Below, piece by piece: positions 33,575 to 41,909 of a stretch of 64,000 bases of DNA. This DNA is from Halobacteriovorax sp. JY17 (lineage in GTDB: Bacteria; Bdellovibrionota; Bacteriovoracia; Bacteriovoracales; Bacteriovoracaceae), in contig NZ_NJER01000001.1 of NCBI RefSeq assembly GCF_002753895.1, positions 1,674,910 to 1,738,909 of the forward strand, given 5' to 3'. A model generated the notes under the pieces. The model worked only from the letters and a program-made list of their open reading frames with translations. It was not told where the DNA came from and made no database searches. Position numbers and translations under genes: made by a program. Position 1 is the first letter of the stretch. Every line of letters starts with the position of its first letter.

Positions 33575-34381
33575 ATGGAATATCTCGTAGTTTTTCTCCC
33601 TTTTATTTTATTGTTAAAACCGAGGAAGCTACTAAAATTCCGTTCAAGTAGCTATAAAGATGTTATTGAACTTATCGAGGGGTTAGAAATTACTCCTCCA
33701 AAAAAAGAGAGTGACCTTTACCGAGTAGCAAAACTTCTCCTCGAAGTAAGAAAAATCTATGGAGCCAAGGCTTTTGAATCTTTAATGATTTTAAAGAAGG
33801 AGGCATATAAATCGGATAGGGAGAGGAAGAAGCTTAAGGGAATTCTCTATGGCGCCTACTTTCAGCAGCTAATTATGGCCCTTTTAATACTCGTTATGAT
33901 TTTTATTACAAACTCTATGTTTGAGAGCTCTCCTACAACCTACATAATCATTTTTCTTCTTCAAGTCTTAGCGATCTTATTCCTGCTTGGAGCAAATTAT
34001 CTCCTAGAAAAGCTCTATATTAGAGGAGGAGTTATTAGGCTTAAGAATCTTCTTATTGTGAAGTCCTTATCTCAGAGTGGCCTCTCTGTGAGCCGAGTGC
34101 TTAAGAATATAGACTGGGAGGGAATGAAGGAGAGCTCATCGAAGCGTCTGTCTAAGTGGGATGAACTCTTTTTCTCAATTCTATCTAAGTGGCAAGAAAC
34201 TGGGCGAGGCCTTGTTGCTAATTTAGATGAATTAGAAGAGGAATTGGAGTTTCTTCGTTCATTTGGAGATAAGAAATTTCATGATTATATGAATGGAGCC
34301 AAATTCTTTGCCCTACTAATAGGTGGTTTCCTAGGCTATTTCGTCTACCTCTTTAGTTTTGTGGGAAAGCTTCTAACTTAG
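33575..34381 (+). CDS. Membrane protein, possible TadB/TadC-like (T2SSF-type) platform
   Basis: 268 residues from the ATG at 33575, with TGGAG upstream; an earlier in-frame start at 33482 would overlap the divergent gene. A hydrophobic N-terminus, two membrane helices (about 97-145), a cytoplasmic helical domain and one C-terminal helix. The cytoplasmic part has QSGLSVSRVL and ETGRGLVANLDELEEELEFL, which resemble the helices of T2SSF domains (aGlsl-aL, then GG-L-eiL-lR). A TadB/TadC-type inner-membrane platform would suit the Tad locus 3 kb away, which has none. Tentative. Confidence 0.4.
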   Translation: MEYLVVFLPFILLLKPRKLLKFRSSSYKDVIELIEGLEITPPKKESDLYRVAKLLLEVRKIYGAKAFESLMILKKEAYKSDRERKKLKGILYGAYFQQLIMALLILVMIFITNSMFESSPTTYIIIFLLQVLAILFLLGANYLLEKLYIRGGVIRLKNLLIVKSLSQSGLSVSRVLKNIDWEGMKESSSKRLSKWDELFFSILSKWQETGRGLVANLDELEEELEFLRSFGDKKFHDYMNGAKFFALLIGGFLGYFVYLFSFVGKLLT

Positions 34382-36164: not shown

Positions 36165-37265
36165 TTGAGAATTTTTAAATTTGGTGGCAGTAGCGTAAAA
36201 GATGCTACTGCCATGAAGCGAGTTGCAAATATTATTTCAAGTCACGAGAAGTGTCGTGTCGTTGTTGTTAGTGCAACGAAGAGTACTACTAATGAATTGG
36301 AAGTTATTGCAAATGCTTCAACTCTTTCGGAAGTAAATCTTACAGAAAAACTCATTCAAAAATTAATGAATAGACATAGAGATATCACTAGAGAGCTTGA
36401 ATTAGATATTGAGTTATCACTATTTGAAATTGAAAGTGAACTTTTTGAAATCTCTAAAAGTATGAATGGTGACGGAAAAGTTATTTCAAAGAAAATGGAT
36501 TCTCTCTACAGTATTGGAGAGAGGTTATCTAGTTTAATTCTTTCAAGGTATCTACAGAGAGTTTCTTCAAAGAATGTCATACTAAAAGATATTCGAGAAG
36601 TTTTAAGAACAAACGATCAATGGAATTTAGCCTCTCCTTTAATTGGAGAGACATTGAAAAATATTGCTAAATGGGGTGAGATTTCTGAGAGTGACTTAAT
36701 TATAACTCAAGGATTTATTGGCTCAACAATGACTGGGGAGACGACAACTTTAGGACGAGAAGGATCTGACTTTAGTGCGACGATTCTAGGAGAAGTTCTA
36801 GATGCAAGTGAAGTTACTATTTGGACTGATGTCGCAGGGGTTGCTACATGTGACCCACGAGTTTTAAGTAGTGCAAGATTTATCCCTCTGCTGAACTATA
36901 AGCACGCGGCCCTCTTGGCCCATTTTGGAGCTAAAGTTCTCTTTGAGAGGACATTAGAGCCAGCGATTAGAAAGAAATTTCCAGTACTAGTTAAGTCAAC
37001 TCTCTCTCCTGCTGAGTCTGGAACTCGAATTCATGAACTTCCGATTAAAAGCGGTCCAATAGGCCTTGCTATTGATAAGGATATTCTAACTATTGTTGGT
37101 GAAAAATTATTAGCAAAGGATATTATTCTTCCTCTGAAAGAACTTTCTGAGTTTGAAATCTATAAGCAGACTGATGAATATATCAGTTTAAAAATTCTTA
37201 ACGAAGATATTGAAGTTTTTGCGGAGAAAATACATCCTTGGATTCTAGAATATCTTCATAATTAA
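36165..37265 (+). CDS. Aspartate kinase with shortened regulatory region
   Basis: 366 residues from a TTG start. The enzyme phosphorylates aspartate at the entry of the Lys/Thr/Met/DAP pathway. Motifs in order: KFGGSSV, SIGERLSS, ITQGFIGS, LGREGSDFSATILGE, then WTDVAGVATCDPRV. The kinase domain ends near 285. Only about 80 residues follow, where most LysC proteins have two ACT domains (about 400-450 residues in all), so feedback inhibition may be lost or altered. Its last 68 bases overlap the convergent Tad ATPase gene. Confidence 0.88.
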   Translation: MRIFKFGGSSVKDATAMKRVANIISSHEKCRVVVVSATKSTTNELEVIANASTLSEVNLTEKLIQKLMNRHRDITRELELDIELSLFEIESELFEISKSMNGDGKVISKKMDSLYSIGERLSSLILSRYLQRVSSKNVILKDIREVLRTNDQWNLASPLIGETLKNIAKWGEISESDLIITQGFIGSTMTGETTTLGREGSDFSATILGEVLDASEVTIWTDVAGVATCDPRVLSSARFIPLLNYKHAALLAHFGAKVLFERTLEPAIRKKFPVLVKSTLSPAESGTRIHELPIKSGPIGLAIDKDILTIVGEKLLAKDIILPLKELSEFEIYKQTDEYISLKILNEDIEVFAEKIHPWILEYLHN

Positions 37266-38307
37266 TTTTTCCAGCTTCATGACCAAGCAATTCAATTGCA
37301 CTTTTAACTTTCTTATTTTCCATGAAAATGATGATGTCAATTCCTGTCGATATTAGTTCTAGAGCAATTTCATTATTCATTCCACCAATTCCGGAGTAAA
37401 GGCAAAGAAGGGTGGAAATTCTCTTTGGACAATCCATTGCACTACTTGCATGAAGAGTTGTGAGTATTCCCTTATGACCAGTATTTGTACTTAAGATAAG
37501 TGGCACGACCTCGTGGGATCTTATTTCTCCGAGAACAATCCTTTCTGGGCGCATTCTAAGGGCGTAGGAACAATAGTCACTTAAAGAGTGACGAGGCTTT
37601 TCACTCGCTACAAGCCTTGTTGTTGTAGGCCCTGGAGATTTTAGCTCTAGTGTATCTTCAATTATAAAAATGTGCTGATTTTCCTCTGAGTAAGTAAGAA
37701 GGGAAGATAGAAAAGATGTTTTTCCTGAGCCCGTTGATCCACAAACAATAATATTTTTCTTCTCATTAAACTTCTCTAAAATAATCTCCTTATCTTGAGA
37801 GTTATTAAAGAAACTTTCTATTGAGTAGGACTCTTGACTATGGAATCTTATAGAGCACTTATGAGAATGTTCTTCTGAAAGAGAGGCATGAGTTAGAGTC
37901 ACACGAATGTTTCGACCAAGTTTACTGGCCTTGAAGCTTACAAATGGGCTAGAGATATTCCAGTCAACTTTATATTCTAAACAGAGAAGCTTATAGCTTA
38001 AAGTAATATCCTTAAAATCTAAGTCTGTAGAGAAATTAGTTGTTCTCTCTTTTTGGAAATATTGAATACTTTCTTCATTGTGAATAATAATTTCCTCAAG
38101 CCCATCTCTCATTTTTAAAAAACTAAAGTGACAAATTGTTTCAAACCAATTATTTAATTTTTCCTTAGGTAGAAGTATATGCCAATCCTCTCCAAACTCT
38201 ATTGTTAGGTTTGTATGAATATTTGAAAGACTTGGATAGTGGCTTCGGCTAATGGAATCATTTATGTATTTTCTTGAAATCTTATAGATATCTTCTGCTA
38301 TATTCAT
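37198..38307 (-). CDS. CpaF/TadA-type secretion ATPase
   Basis: 369 residues, short for CpaF/TadA (usually 420-480). Motifs: Walker A CGSTGSGKTS (189-198), Asp box IIEDTLEL (215-222), Walker B RIVLGEIR (256-263) and His box HKGILTTLHASSA (278-290). The hexameric ATPase powers Flp pilus assembly or type II-like secretion from the cytoplasm. The N-terminal domain is reduced. Its start overlaps the secretin stop (ATGA) and it is the last gene of the Tad operon. The 3' end overlaps the aspartate kinase gene by 68 bases. Confidence 0.88.
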   Translation of the reverse strand: MNIAEDIYKISRKYINDSISRSHYPSLSNIHTNLTIEFGEDWHILLPKEKLNNWFETICHFSFLKMRDGLEEIIIHNEESIQYFQKERTTNFSTDLDFKDITLSYKLLCLEYKVDWNISSPFVSFKASKLGRNIRVTLTHASLSEEHSHKCSIRFHSQESYSIESFFNNSQDKEIILEKFNEKKNIIVCGSTGSGKTSFLSSLLTYSEENQHIFIIEDTLELKSPGPTTTRLVASEKPRHSLSDYCSYALRMRPERIVLGEIRSHEVVPLILSTNTGHKGILTTLHASSAMDCPKRISTLLCLYSGIGGMNNEIALELISTGIDIIIFMENKKVKSAIELLGHEAGKINYEDILESKDVFSPQKLQYLR

Positions 38308-39683
38308 GGGAATCTCTCCAGTTGTACAAAGAGTTTAATATTCTTAAAAGTTTCTATTTCTGATGTTGAGGAGAATAATCTTCCAAGGATTGGTATTCTT
38401 GATAGATAGGGAAGAGAGCTATCCTCACTCTGAATTCCTTGATGGCCAATGTCAACAATCTGCAAGGATTCATTTAGTTGTAACCTCACTCTGGATTTTG
38501 TTCTATTTGAACTAATCGTTGCATTGGCGCCATTAGAAATAGGTCTAGATAACTCGGTTTCTATGTTTAAAAAGAATTGATCATTCTCCTTTTCAATTTT
38601 TGTCTTTAATTTAAGACCGGCAAATTTCCAATTTGTTGTAAACTCATCGTTCGACCCTTGAGTAAAAGGTATTTCACTTCCAATACTAATTTCACCTTCA
38701 TTATTAATTCTTGTCATAAGTTCTGGAGTAGCAATAGAAGAGAGCTTAATATTCTTGTTTTCAAAATTTATTAAATTTTCACCAATAAAGGAATTTAAGT
38801 CTTTCTTTAAGAGAGCATAGAGATTATTAGAAATTTTATTAAGACCTAAGGAAAGTACTTCACTACTTGCGGACTCAAGTAAGATAAGACGCGTTTTTAA
38901 TTTATAATTTGGGAGAAGAAGTGCCTCATCGGTTTGAATAAATATGATTGGAATATCACTTAACCAATAGTCAGTTATAGATTTTAAGTCATAATTTGAC
39001 TTCGGGAGCTTACACTTAATGGGAATTGAATCAAATTTACAAGAAACATTGGTGATCTTATTTTTAATAAAATTCCCATAGATGAGATTTGCTATTTCTT
39101 TTTGTAAGTTTTCAGAAAGTTGAGTTTGATTATTAATTTCGAAGTTCTTATTTACTTTTTCTAGCTCTCTTGAAAAAGCTATTAACTCTTGTAGAGTTTT
39201 AATTTCTCCGCAGGCCATGATCGTCGAATTAACAAGGCTTGCTTTGAGACCGATTGAATTTAGAGTAAGGAGTGTCATTCGTGCCTTTGATATTTGCACT
39301 TTCGTATGTATGAAAATATTAAATTCTTGCGTTACTCCTCCTTTTCTCCAGACCTTTAGGGAGCTATGACCTTGCTGTTTTGCTCTGATCATAAGACTTT
39401 CTTTTGCTGCATAGTGTTTTATTGAAATGAGTTCTTTATTACTGGTGGCATAGTTAACAAGCCCGCTAACGGGGATTTTTCTGTACTCACCAATTGCTAA
39501 GTGAATAAATTGAATGTCAGTATTTTCTTGATTACAGCTACTTACGGCATTTGGTGCCAGGAGAATTAAGCAGTTAACTATTAATACTTTGACAACTTGG
39601 CCAGATCTAGGTAAAAACTTGGTTCTACTTCGCGTAGAATTAATAGAGAAATTTAAGTTTTTAAGATATAGGAGAGTAATCAT
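38304..39683 (-). CDS. CpaC/RcpA-type outer-membrane secretin
   Basis: About 459 residues from the ATG at 39683. Residues about 25-50 form a hydrophobic signal. Next comes a pilus-assembly N-terminal domain (IGEYRKIPVSGLVNYATSN, then GHSSLKVWRKGG). The C-terminal secretin core includes GSEIPFTQG and the typical ending YLSRIPILGRLFSS. Secretins form the outer-membrane pore for the pilus. The start is uncertain: it has no clear Shine-Dalgarno and its ATG shares CATG with the small basic gene on the plus strand. Earlier readings run into that gene and its terminator. Confidence 0.8.
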   Translation of the reverse strand: MITLLYLKNLNFSINSTRSRTKFLPRSGQVVKVLIVNCLILLAPNAVSSCNQENTDIQFIHLAIGEYRKIPVSGLVNYATSNKELISIKHYAAKESLMIRAKQQGHSSLKVWRKGGVTQEFNIFIHTKVQISKARMTLLTLNSIGLKASLVNSTIMACGEIKTLQELIAFSRELEKVNKNFEINNQTQLSENLQKEIANLIYGNFIKNKITNVSCKFDSIPIKCKLPKSNYDLKSITDYWLSDIPIIFIQTDEALLLPNYKLKTRLILLESASSEVLSLGLNKISNNLYALLKKDLNSFIGENLINFENKNIKLSSIATPELMTRINNEGEISIGSEIPFTQGSNDEFTTNWKFAGLKLKTKIEKENDQFFLNIETELSRPISNGANATISSNRTKSRVRLQLNESLQIVDIGHQGIQSEDSSLPYLSRIPILGRLFSSTSEIETFKNIKLFVQLERFP

Positions 39684-39810
39684 GGTATCTAATACAAGAA
39701 TTACAAAAACTAGAAGATCAAATAAGAAAGTTAAAGCTGGTTCTAGAAGAAAGGCTGCGAATAGAAACAAGGGTACAACTCCTAAGTTCGCGATCCACCA
39801 AGACAAGTAA
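39682..39810 (+). CDS. Very basic 42-residue protein
   Basis: A short gene with ATAGGAGAG in front of ATG, encoding 42 residues rich in Arg, Lys, Asn and Thr (TRRSNKKVKAGSRRKA, then NKGTTPKFAIHQ). No hydrophobic segment. The composition resembles small ribosomal or nucleic-acid-binding proteins, but no family is recognised. The gene lies antisense to the gap in the Tad operon and ends before two hairpins, the second with a proper T tract. That binding site and terminator are the main evidence it is real. Confidence 0.7.
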   Translation: MVSNTRITKTRRSNKKVKAGSRRKAANRNKGTTPKFAIHQDK

Positions 39811-39827
39811 TCGCTTTTTTGATTTAA

Positions 39828-39844
39828 GGGCAACTCGATTGCCC
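39828..39844 (+). other. Stem-loop GGGCAA/TTGCCC
   Basis: Six-base stem, five-base loop, between the 42-residue gene and its terminator. Followed by GATAAATTTA, so not itself a good terminator. Confidence 0.45.
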
Positions 39845-39854
39845 TGATAAATTT

Positions 39855-39880
39855 AGCCCGCCATATAGTGGGCTTTTTTT
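39855..39880 (+). terminator. Rho-independent terminator of the small basic gene
   Basis: AGCCCGC and GTGGGCT form a 7-bp stem with one G-T pair, then seven T (39874-39880). On the minus strand the hairpin lacks a T tract, so Tad transcripts could pass. Confidence 0.88.
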
Positions 39881-40172
39881 ATTTCCAGTAAACTCCAAGC
39901 ATTTCTTCCATTACTTCCTCGTTTCTATAAACCAGTTTGACTTCCTTATTTCTATCTAAGCAGATGTGAGTTGCTATTACTTCTTGTTTTTGACATGGTC
40001 CATACTCGATCTTGTATATGTCCTTACTGACTTTAAAGCGCTCATTCATAACTTTCTCAATCTGTTGCATCGACTCCTTATCACTTCCTTCATATGTAAT
40101 TAAAACGAAAGGAGTGTCCTTAGAAAAAGAGTTTAAAGAGAGGAGCATGAATAGACTAAAAACTAATTTCAT
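39879..40172 (-). CDS. Small secreted protein in the Tad operon, hypothetical
   Basis: 97 residues with a signal peptide (about 1-18). The mature part is charged with two cysteines (GPCQKQE and HICLDR) that could pair. No family recognised. Its start overlaps the preceding gene by 17 bases, which places it in the pilus operon; it may be a periplasmic assembly factor. Confidence 0.55.
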   Translation of the reverse strand: MKLVFSLFMLLSLNSFSKDTPFVLITYEGSDKESMQQIEKVMNERFKVSKDIYKIEYGPCQKQEVIATHICLDRNKEVKLVYRNEEVMEEMLGVYWK

Positions 40173-40617
40173 AATTTTTCCTTTCGCTAGTAATCACTTT
40201 TCTTAGCGGGATTAATTTCCAGTTATTTGGCTTATTTATTATCCAGGAGGATTTATCTTTTGGAATTTCAAGTGTTACGAGAAGAGCTCCATCTGGAGTC
40301 TTTTCTCGTAACACTATTTGAACACTTTCTATTTCTTGAAGAGATTTTTGATTGATTAAATTCGCCTTTTCTTGATCTTCGGGAACTATTGAGTCAACTT
40401 CTAATTTAATAATGGTATGATTTATACTTAGCTCTTTCGTGACTTGTGTTATCTCCTGCGTAGGAGAGTCTTGAACAAGTGTTCTCGCTATATGTGATAA
40501 AAGAAAAATGATAAGAAATTGAAAGAGAAGTTTCTTTCGATCTTGCTTACTTTTTTTCTTGGTAGACTCTTTGTACATTTGAAGGGGTGAACTCATTCCA
40601 CTTTCTTTCGAATTCAT
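40156..40617 (-). CDS. Single-pass membrane protein in the Tad operon, possibly CpaB/RcpC-like
   Basis: Up to 153 residues. A basic N-terminus (STKKKSKQDRKK) precedes one membrane helix (about 30-45); the rest is periplasmic and beta-rich (PDGALLVTLEIPKD). That layout is like CpaB/RcpC, but the sequence is short and the SAF domain is not clear. GAGAG sits before the first ATG, giving a 71-base overlap with the upstream gene; later ATGs (residues 8 and 14) would shorten this. Assignment by position only. Confidence 0.4.
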   Translation of the reverse strand: MNSKESGMSSPLQMYKESTKKKSKQDRKKLLFQFLIIFLLSHIARTLVQDSPTQEITQVTKELSINHTIIKLEVDSIVPEDQEKANLINQKSLQEIESVQIVLREKTPDGALLVTLEIPKDKSSWIINKPNNWKLIPLRKVITSERKNYEISF

Positions 40618-40738
40618 ATAAATCTCTCTTTTCTACAATTTTTAAATGGGAGTCAATCTTTACGAAACTAGCTAGACAGCAAGTTAACATAAAGAGAAAT
40701 ATTGCCAATTCTATTTCTGCAAATCCTTTTTCATTCAT
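40547..40738 (-). CDS. TadE-like minor pilin
   Basis: 63 residues. N-terminus MNEKGFAEIELAIFLFML: a short charged leader, cleavage expected after Gly5, and Glu at +5 of the mature chain, followed by a hydrophobic helix. This is the type IV/Tad prepilin signature processed by a prepilin peptidase. The charged C-terminus is short. Overlaps its upstream neighbour by ATGA. Minor pseudopilin of the TadE/TadF kind is the best reading. Confidence 0.7.
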   Translation of the reverse strand: MNEKGFAEIELAIFLFMLTCCLASFVKIDSHLKIVEKRDLYEFERKWNEFTPSNVQRVYQEKK

Positions 40739-41319
40739 ATTTCATAGACCTTAGTGAAGATTTTTACTTCTTTACTAAACTTGTTATCGACTTTGATTGA
40801 TGATTTGAGAATAAGAACGTTATTAAGAGAGACATTTTTTTCATTAATGGAATAGAAGTATCCCTTCTTTGTTCTCTCTATTATTGTGGTTTGATCAAAG
40901 CTTCTTTGAAAGGAGACTTTCGCTCTCATTTTATAAGGAGAATTTAGAAGAATATTGACCTTAGTCGTCTTTGCGCATTCATTAATTTTGTAAATATCCT
41001 TATAAAACTTAATCAATTTGAATTGCTGTAAAGACTTTAAAGAAGTCAGCGCCGCTTTTGCTGGCGTCGATATTTGAGGGAGTGGAGCTTTTGAAGCATA
41101 GTAGGAGATTTGAATAAGTCTATTGGTTTGGTTGATATCACCTATAAATTTACTTTGGTAAAAGTGTGATTTCCTCATACATAGAAGAGATTTGAGTCTA
41201 ACTCTATTATTCTTTAAAGAAATTAACTTTGTTAGAGTCACTGTACTTATTCCACTTAATGCCATTAAAAGAGTAAGGCATAGAAAAATTTGGGTAGAAC
41301 CTCTTTGATTTAGCTTCAT
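40735..41319 (-). CDS. TadG/pilin-like membrane protein
   Basis: 194 residues. N-terminus NQRGSTQIFLCLTLLMALSG resembles TadG/TadE-type proteins (RG-S/G before a single hydrophobic helix), but Phe occupies +5 where pilins have Glu. The periplasmic part is basic with two cysteines. ATGA overlap with genes on both sides. Probably an accessory pilus or envelope anchor protein. Confidence 0.55.
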   Translation of the reverse strand: MKLNQRGSTQIFLCLTLLMALSGISTVTLTKLISLKNNRVRLKSLLCMRKSHFYQSKFIGDINQTNRLIQISYYASKAPLPQISTPAKAALTSLKSLQQFKLIKFYKDIYKINECAKTTKVNILLNSPYKMRAKVSFQRSFDQTTIIERTKKGYFYSINEKNVSLNNVLILKSSIKVDNKFSKEVKIFTKVYEI

Positions 41320-41555
41320 TTCTTTAAGCCTATTACTTTATCAATAGTGATAAATTCTTCGTTGACTTGGACTTTTAATATTTGATTACATTTAAATAGT
41401 GTTTGATTTCGGTTCTTAACTATTGCGGAGGTTATCTTCTTGAGAAGAAGGTGATGCTTTTCACTCTGACACCTTGATTCTTGAGCAACACCCCACGAGC
41501 CATAAAGAGCGAGAAGAGAGATTTTAAAAATAAGTGTAGTCTTTAAAATCTCCAA
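41316..41555 (-). CDS. Small secreted protein in the Tad operon, hypothetical
   Basis: 79 residues from a TTG codon two bases after the pilin stop; no ATG is available. Signal peptide about 1-24, mature part basic with two cysteines (SRCQSE, FKCNQ). No family recognised. Overlaps the next gene by ATGA, so translational coupling supports it as a real gene. Confidence 0.5.
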   Translation of the reverse strand: MEILKTTLIFKISLLALYGSWGVAQESRCQSEKHHLLLKKITSAIVKNRNQTLFKCNQILKVQVNEEFITIDKVIGLKK

Positions 41556-41557
41556 AT

Positions 41558-41737
41558 CTATCTCGCTGGAATGTGCTTCACAATATCCTTTCTCATCTTC
41601 TCAACTCTCGTATGCACGCTTTCGCCAAATTGTTTCATCGCGACTAGGCAAAATATACCCACCAATGATGAAATGATGATGTACTCCATAAGACCTTGTC
41701 CTTTTTCATTTCTTAAGATTTTCTTTGCTATAGACAT
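41558..41737 (-). CDS. Flp/Tad-type major pilin
   Basis: 59 residues, with AAAGGAGAA before the ATG. The sequence KGQGLMEYIIISSLVGI carries the class IVb Flp signature: cleavage after Gly13, Glu at +5 and Tyr at +6, then one hydrophobic helix (about 20-35). The C-terminal part is short and basic (MRKDIVKH). Flp pilins polymerise into adhesive pili. First gene of the operon, about 25 bases downstream of a sigma-54-type promoter. Easily missed because of its length. Confidence 0.88.
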   Translation of the reverse strand: MSIAKKILRNEKGQGLMEYIIISSLVGIFCLVAMKQFGESVHTRVEKMRKDIVKHIPAR

Positions 41738-41772
41738 GAGTTCTCCTTTATTAATCTTCGATGATTAAAGGC

Positions 41773-41788
41773 TGCACAGGCTTTGCCA
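41773..41788 (-). promoter_or_regulatory. Candidate sigma-54 promoter of the flp/tad operon
   Basis: Read on the minus strand: TGGCAAAGCCTGTGCA. It matches the -24/-12 consensus TGGCAC-N5-TTGCA with the invariant GG and GC at exact 10-base spacing and one mismatch in TTGCA. Initiation about 12 bases on would leave a leader of about 25 bases carrying AAGGAG. RpoN with an enhancer-binding protein commonly drives pilin genes. Confidence 0.6.
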
Positions 41789-41909
41789 AAGTTGAGTGCC
41801 TGATGTTGAGAACTTAGAAAGAATTAGGTTCAGAAATTGTACTAGTAGGTAAAAATAACTACTCGTAATTACGATTGCATGCAAAATTAGAGCAGATTAA
41901 AATAGGGGA

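Follow-up and report, generated by a model that had tools for sequence, protein, structure and literature searches.

A 64,000-nucleotide stretch of the genome of the marine predator Halobacteriovorax sp. JY17 (C1:1674910-1738909, hereafter the window; the genome comprises 3.47 Mb in 5 contigs) carries a run of minus-strand genes for an Flp pilin, a secretin and an assembly ATPase. A sequence-only reading had described this run as a compact Flp/Tad pilus operon with a reduced parts list. The genes of the locus and the neighbouring features that bear on it are as follows (window coordinates; aa, amino acids).

41773..41789, minus strand: sigma-54-like promoter TTGGCAAAGCCTGTGCA upstream of flp, from a pattern scan and family-wide scoring
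41558..41737, minus strand: Flp-type major pilin, 59 aa; class III signal KG^QGLMEY, Flp_Fap matches among orthologs
41316..41555, minus strand: p79, conserved in position, with a putative function
40735..41319, minus strand: p194, minor-pilin-like by motif counts; no Pfam family
40547..40738, minus strand: p63, small and pilin-like, TadE-like in topology; G^FAEIE motif, no TadE Pfam match
40156..40617, minus strand: p153, probable RcpC/CpaB-like alignment-ring protein, from predicted structure against the PDB
39879..40172, minus strand: p97, small secreted protein; two invariant Cys
38304..39683, minus strand: secretin, 459 aa, start corrected; Pfam Secretin, start context conserved in the genus
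37198..38307, minus strand: CpaF/VirB11-type assembly ATPase, 369 aa; T2SSE match, invariant catalytic residues
33575..34381, plus strand: candidate T2SSF/TadB-like inner-membrane platform, 268 aa, two related halves; profile comparisons
39682..39810, plus strand: antisense gene for a 42-aa basic protein, conserved; not thought to be part of the pilus
39589..39617, plus strand: promoter-like TTGACA-17-TAAAAA sequence assigned to the antisense gene, within the 5' end of the secretin gene; genus-conserved
39855..39874, plus strand: terminator of the antisense gene

The eight minus-strand genes reported previously were all recovered as open reading frames (ORFs) at 37198-41737, and their tight packing was equally evident: the ORFs overlap or sit 2 bp apart, the p97/secretin junction excepted. 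With Flp, a secretin, a CpaF/VirB11-type ATPase and a probable RcpC-like protein, the proposed assignment of the operon to the Flp/Tad type is supported in kind. At its distal end, the 3' end of the ATPase gene overlaps a convergent aspartokinase-like gene by 68 bp (37198-37265).

The pilin assignment was upheld. The Flp protein possesses the G^xxxxEY motif and the hydrophobic stretch of a Flp-type prepilin of Tad systems, and G-1, E+5 and Y+6 are invariant in the 19 orthologs compared. Flp_Fap is matched by 10 of these 19 orthologs, the window copy lying below the Pfam cut-off. For p79, p97, p194 and p63, nothing reliable was found in Pfam or NCBIfam. The p63 protein carries a G^FAEIE motif, while p194 has a glycine ahead of its hydrophobic helix in 61 of 63 sequences, E/D at +5 in none, and two invariant cysteines. 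The earlier labels TadE-like and TadG-like thus retain the N-terminal motif in their favour, but Pfam gave no TadE or TadG match (no TadE for p63, no family at all for p194), and the names were dropped. The p79 protein, with an N-terminal hydrophobic helix and two cysteines, is possibly a leaderless pilin-like or periplasmic subunit. The secreted p97 has two invariant cysteines and gave nothing against CpaB by hhalign; our guess is that it is a partner of the secretin.

The secretin itself was confirmed (Pfam Secretin, E 7.8e-17), but its reported start at 39833 had to be revised. The region 39684-39833 is not secretin, and the start context of the ATG at 39683 is common to five members of the genus; the gene likely starts at this ATG, 150 bases further in.

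One of the three proteins previously set aside as small accessory proteins, p153, is instead probably an RcpC-type ring subunit, consisting of a membrane anchor and one periplasmic domain. Its AF2 model (pLDDT, the predicted local distance difference test, 84) comprises a membrane helix and a small beta domain, and the first PDB match of this model by Foldseek was RcpC of the Tad alignment complex (9gzr; E 0.067, prob 0.96). The VIA comparison with RcpC of 9gzr gave Z 8.2 and a root-mean-square deviation of 5.0 over 87 residues, the next, unrelated chain reaching Z 5.7. The stretch covered by the match, residues 119-268, seems to fall largely within the second periplasmic domain, the part of RcpC that forms a C12 ring (PMC12307814). 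The C-terminus of p153 is of the YEIxF type in 51 of 58 sequences, and this end may form a strand for docking to the secretin.

Judged by its sequence, the ATPase is of the CpaF/VirB11 type and belongs to a clade of its own. It matches T2SSE in Pfam (E 5.1e-30), 17 orthologs show no change in the Walker, Asp-box and His-box residues, and it scores similarly against TadA and against VirB11, in the PDB as well. The trees placed it in a firm (starred) clade apart from the TadA rows, with a sister that differed between them: one tree joined the clade to VirB11/TrbB (80/81, not starred), and another put it at the base. The former designation as a CpaF-type ATPase therefore holds at the level of CpaF/VirB11 type, but the protein is not demonstrably CpaF. 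Two more CpaF-type ATPases are encoded at L026:9290-10321 and L023:9898-11031, where the neighbouring listed ORFs include no secretin, platform or pilin; one of the two (own_342k) groups firmly with copies from other family genomes.

It had also been claimed that TadV, TadZ and a TadB/TadC pair are missing. The locus indeed contains neither TadV nor TadZ, both of which are present on contig C2, and two separate platform proteins were not found at it, but a divergent candidate for the platform is encoded on the opposite strand, 2.8 kb past the ATPase gene. From profile comparisons, we consider it likely that this gene (33575-34381) encodes the divergent T2SSF/TadB-like platform of the machine. 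Transmembrane-like segments are located near residues 5-23, 90-121, 123-148 and 242-268. T2SSF was matched by 4 of 16 homologs (best E 9.5e-4), and as the family does not reach the curated cut-off of T2SSF (PF00482), a likeness rather than membership is claimed. By hhalign, the family profile matched TadB at a probability of 80-82% (E ~1e-5) and the N-terminal half at 90.7 (E 1.2e-6), against 2.6 for the reversed half and at most 0.9% for the whole-length reversed and ten shuffled controls; nothing significant was obtained against TadC. The two halves are also mutually similar (48.6% vs 0.3% when reversed). The candidate shares with PilC/GspF the domain-TM-TM-domain-TM order (TM, transmembrane) and the resemblance between halves, whereas it is shorter (~270-300 aa vs ~400), has shortened cytoplasmic domains and is closer to TadB in profile. 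With the ring part and the platform both probably present, though diverged, the notion of a reduced parts list is largely unsupported.

The same locus occurs in Halobacteriovorax, Bacteriovorax and uncultured Bacteriovoracaceae, the nearest relatives including H. marinus 36_234_T64. Flp, secretin and ATPase co-occur, with small genes between them, in 20 family loci, one of which (L071) is without several of the small genes, and the gene order is kept in 65 named Bacteriovoracales loci. In these 65 loci, Flp was counted in 65, p194 in 64, p63, p153 and the secretin in 60 each, p97 in 59 and the ATPase in 57; the gaps fall mostly at contig ends, and L187 has no recognisable small genes. Because the gene set and order recur across the family, a chance association is excluded. 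Of 77 family genomes that are at least 90% complete, 75 have the ATPase and 74 the platform candidate; G031 lacks both, and only one of the two is present in each of G036, G077 and G095. In 11 genomes of other families, no homolog of the platform candidate occurred. Pairwise ratios of nonsynonymous to synonymous substitution rates (dN/dS) were 0.03-0.21 for every gene, with dS near saturation. The locus is intact and under purifying selection.

A sigma-54-like TGGCA-N-TGCA site, the sole match in the window, lies 49 nt before flp, and a weak sigma-70 pattern overlaps it. Every one of the five genus members, along with several others, has a scored site at a distance of 45-61 nt from flp. At p<=0.01, a site was obtained in 27 of the 65 family loci vs 7 of 325 control windows; the other 38 loci are without a site at this threshold. 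The genome also contains rpoN. These data support the view that a predicted sigma-54 promoter drives the flp operon. Rfam gave nothing over 33-43 kb.

The genome harbors, in addition, a near-complete Tad locus at C2:205-213k, the equivalent of bd0109-bd0119 in B. bacteriovorus, with three Flps, a TadV-like peptidase (L028; PF01478 E 1.1e-4, just under the cut-off), CpaB with SAF and RcpC domains, CpaC, a TadZ-TadA fusion (L028:13716-15944) and TadB. TadC is encoded on a separate contig, C3 (L030:9698-10912). This locus is the same kind of machine with Flp pilins, yet it differs from the one in the window in these parts and in its upstream sequence, which is not sigma-54-like: TTAAGTTT-N11-GACCGACAA resembles a FliA promoter in an unscored reading by eye. 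A PilD-type peptidase (L027) is encoded in the type IVa pilus locus. The suggestion that parts might come from elsewhere is accordingly plausible for the peptidase, which is possibly shared with these other loci. Directly downstream of TadB, L028:16923-18551 encodes a Rhs/YD-repeat-like protein that recalls Bd0109 of the hit locus. ComEC, the DNA channel looked for as the mark of a natural-competence pilus, was not found in the genome (controls were positive in 10 of 14).

Compared with the Tad/Flp (type IVb/IVc) systems of P. aeruginosa (RcpA/RcpC/TadA) and Caulobacter (Cpa), the window locus shares the Flp motif, the secretin, the CpaF/VirB11-type ATPase, a subunit of TadE-like topology and a putative RcpC-like ring protein. 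In contrast to them, its ring protein has one domain without detectable CpaB sequence, its putative platform is a single short protein rather than TadB plus TadC, its ATPase is not demonstrably of the TadA clade, and TadV, TadZ and TadD are absent from the locus. The components of the type IV filament superfamily, namely a class III pilin, an ATPase, a platform and a peptidase, are all encoded in the genome, the platform as a candidate.

Taken together, we propose that the locus encodes a second, largely self-contained and strongly diverged Tad-type pilus machine, and assign this reading a probability of roughly 0.68. Flp would be the filament subunit, and p63, p194 and perhaps p79 would be minor or tip subunits. 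Prepilin processing would rely on a peptidase from another locus (TadV or PilD); the ATPase would turn on the platform encoded at 33575-34381, and subunits would be pushed through the RcpC-like p153 ring and the secretin. Sigma-54 would switch the operon on independently of the other Tad locus. We infer that the product is a pilus, presumably a surface pilus of the contact stage.

Several observations weigh against this proposal. No pilotin (TadD) or TadZ was found at the locus, and hhalign gave no sequence match between p153 and CpaB. The ATPase was not placed in the TadA clade by the trees, and a sister relationship to TadA was not rejected (p-AU, approximately unbiased test, 0.158). As for the platform, T2SSF was matched, weakly, by only 1 of 10 further homologs, and a fold search of the model in the PDB returned only unrelated helical proteins, an outcome that is uninformative for long helices. 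Moreover, the platform gene stays beside an ABC-F gene even when the pilus operon lies elsewhere; because the gene follows ABC-F and is on the opposite strand, its adjacency to the pilus operon is weak evidence. This behaviour would suit an alternative in which Flp, secretin and ATPase form an accessory set, with TadB, TadC, TadZ and TadV supplied by the C2/C3 Tad locus and 33575-34381 unrelated to it, and all of the parts to be borrowed do exist in the genome. However, the ATPase clade is far from TadA, making the use of TadB/TadC less likely, the TadB-like profile signal of the platform is above its controls, and the platform gene occurs nearly wherever the ATPase does, with both missing from the same genome. 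We therefore regard such borrowing as unlikely.

GspK-type pseudopilins have no acidic residue at +5, a trait shared by p194. Together with the very small size of the pilin and the absence of a PilT-type retraction ATPase from the locus, this would be in keeping with a secretion system in which a short Flp pseudopilus pushes periplasmic cargo through the secretin, as in type II secretion. Yet all homologs share a highly conserved Flp core, as in a major filament subunit, a separate type II secretion system is already encoded in the genome, RcpC-like rings have been described in pilus machines (PMC12307814), and Tad ATPases can both extend and retract (PMC12019362); a secretion system is thus quite improbable. 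As grounds for rejecting its view, the sequence-only reading had named a second complete locus formed by the remaining tad genes, together with decay or lack of expression of the present one. The former exists in near-complete form, and the probable counterpart in B. bacteriovorus, flp3, has never been seen expressed (PMC5430801), but the intact ORFs, the dN/dS values, the presence of the ATPase in nearly all family genomes and the conserved promoter-like site render a decayed or non-functional relic exceedingly improbable.

The locus is likely homologous to the flp3 locus of Bdellovibrio. In B. bacteriovorus HD100, bd3306 ('pilQ') and bd3307 ('cpaF') lie near bd3297 (flp3), and bd3307 expression is higher in the attack phase than in host-independent strains (PMC3818213). 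In a Bdellovibrio-like genome (G041), an Flp gene situated ~13 genes from a FliA-like gene is succeeded by the small genes in the same order, with the secretin-ATPase pair 5 kb on. This spacing matches that of a11q_617/a11q_630 and of bd3297...bd3306/bd3307, and thus fits flp3. The two loci agree in having an Flp gene, similarly ordered small genes and a secretin paired with an ATPase; they differ in that the pilin in the window sits within its own putative machine, no platform homolog is found outside the family (11 genomes), and the trees do not show the ATPases to be orthologous. A further point against the proposal, and one that leaves the suggested role in attachment conjectural, is that the flp3 pilin gene of B. 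bacteriovorus was found to be silent and not required for predation (Avidan et al. 2017, PMC5430801); flp3 (bd3297) of Bdellovibrio and like organisms has also been treated as outside the TAD loci (PMC5430801). In the literature on bd3306, bd3307 and bd3297, no functional test of bd3306/bd3307 was found.

Predators of the Bdellovibrionota rely on pili for prey entry, and 'orphan' Flp pilins have been a puzzle. The self-contained machine proposed here would give one such orphan pilin its own apparatus, with named platform and ring candidates, and predicts separate control of the two loci (sigma-54 vs FliA). It would also illustrate that Tad parts can diverge to the point that sequence searches miss them. 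Fission of a duplicated single-chain platform is considered to have given rise to TadB and TadC (PMC6668835), and a single-chain platform beside a VirB11/CpaF-type ATPase, if true, would bear directly on this fission step. A bolder idea, which we hold to be rather doubtful, is that the locus represents a distinct class of type IV filament machine, sister to Tad and not nested in it. Its mini-platform would be a single protein, unsplit or re-fused, its alignment ring would be built from one domain and its ATPase would form a separate clade; the class would be ancestral in Bdellovibrionota predators and would have persisted alongside a full Tad system.

Between p97 and the secretin, the antisense gene (39682-39810) overlaps the secretin at the start codons (CATG). 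Since this unit interrupts the operon, the secretin and ATPase genes would need read-through or another promoter. Its TTGACA-17-TAAAAA site was read from the sequence and is conserved in the genus; the consensus scan did not pick it. The encoded protein (MVSNTRITKTRR...KGTTPKFAIHQDK) gave no match in Pfam, NCBIfam or the PDB. Conservation of the gene extends beyond the genus to other members of the family (loci L061, L062, L063, L064, L066, L072, L076 and L080), and its DNA is identical to that of L061 at 127 of 129 positions, while the synonymous divergence (pS) of neighbouring genes is ~0.7. Its product may be a protein made at high levels that binds ribosomes or nucleic acids.

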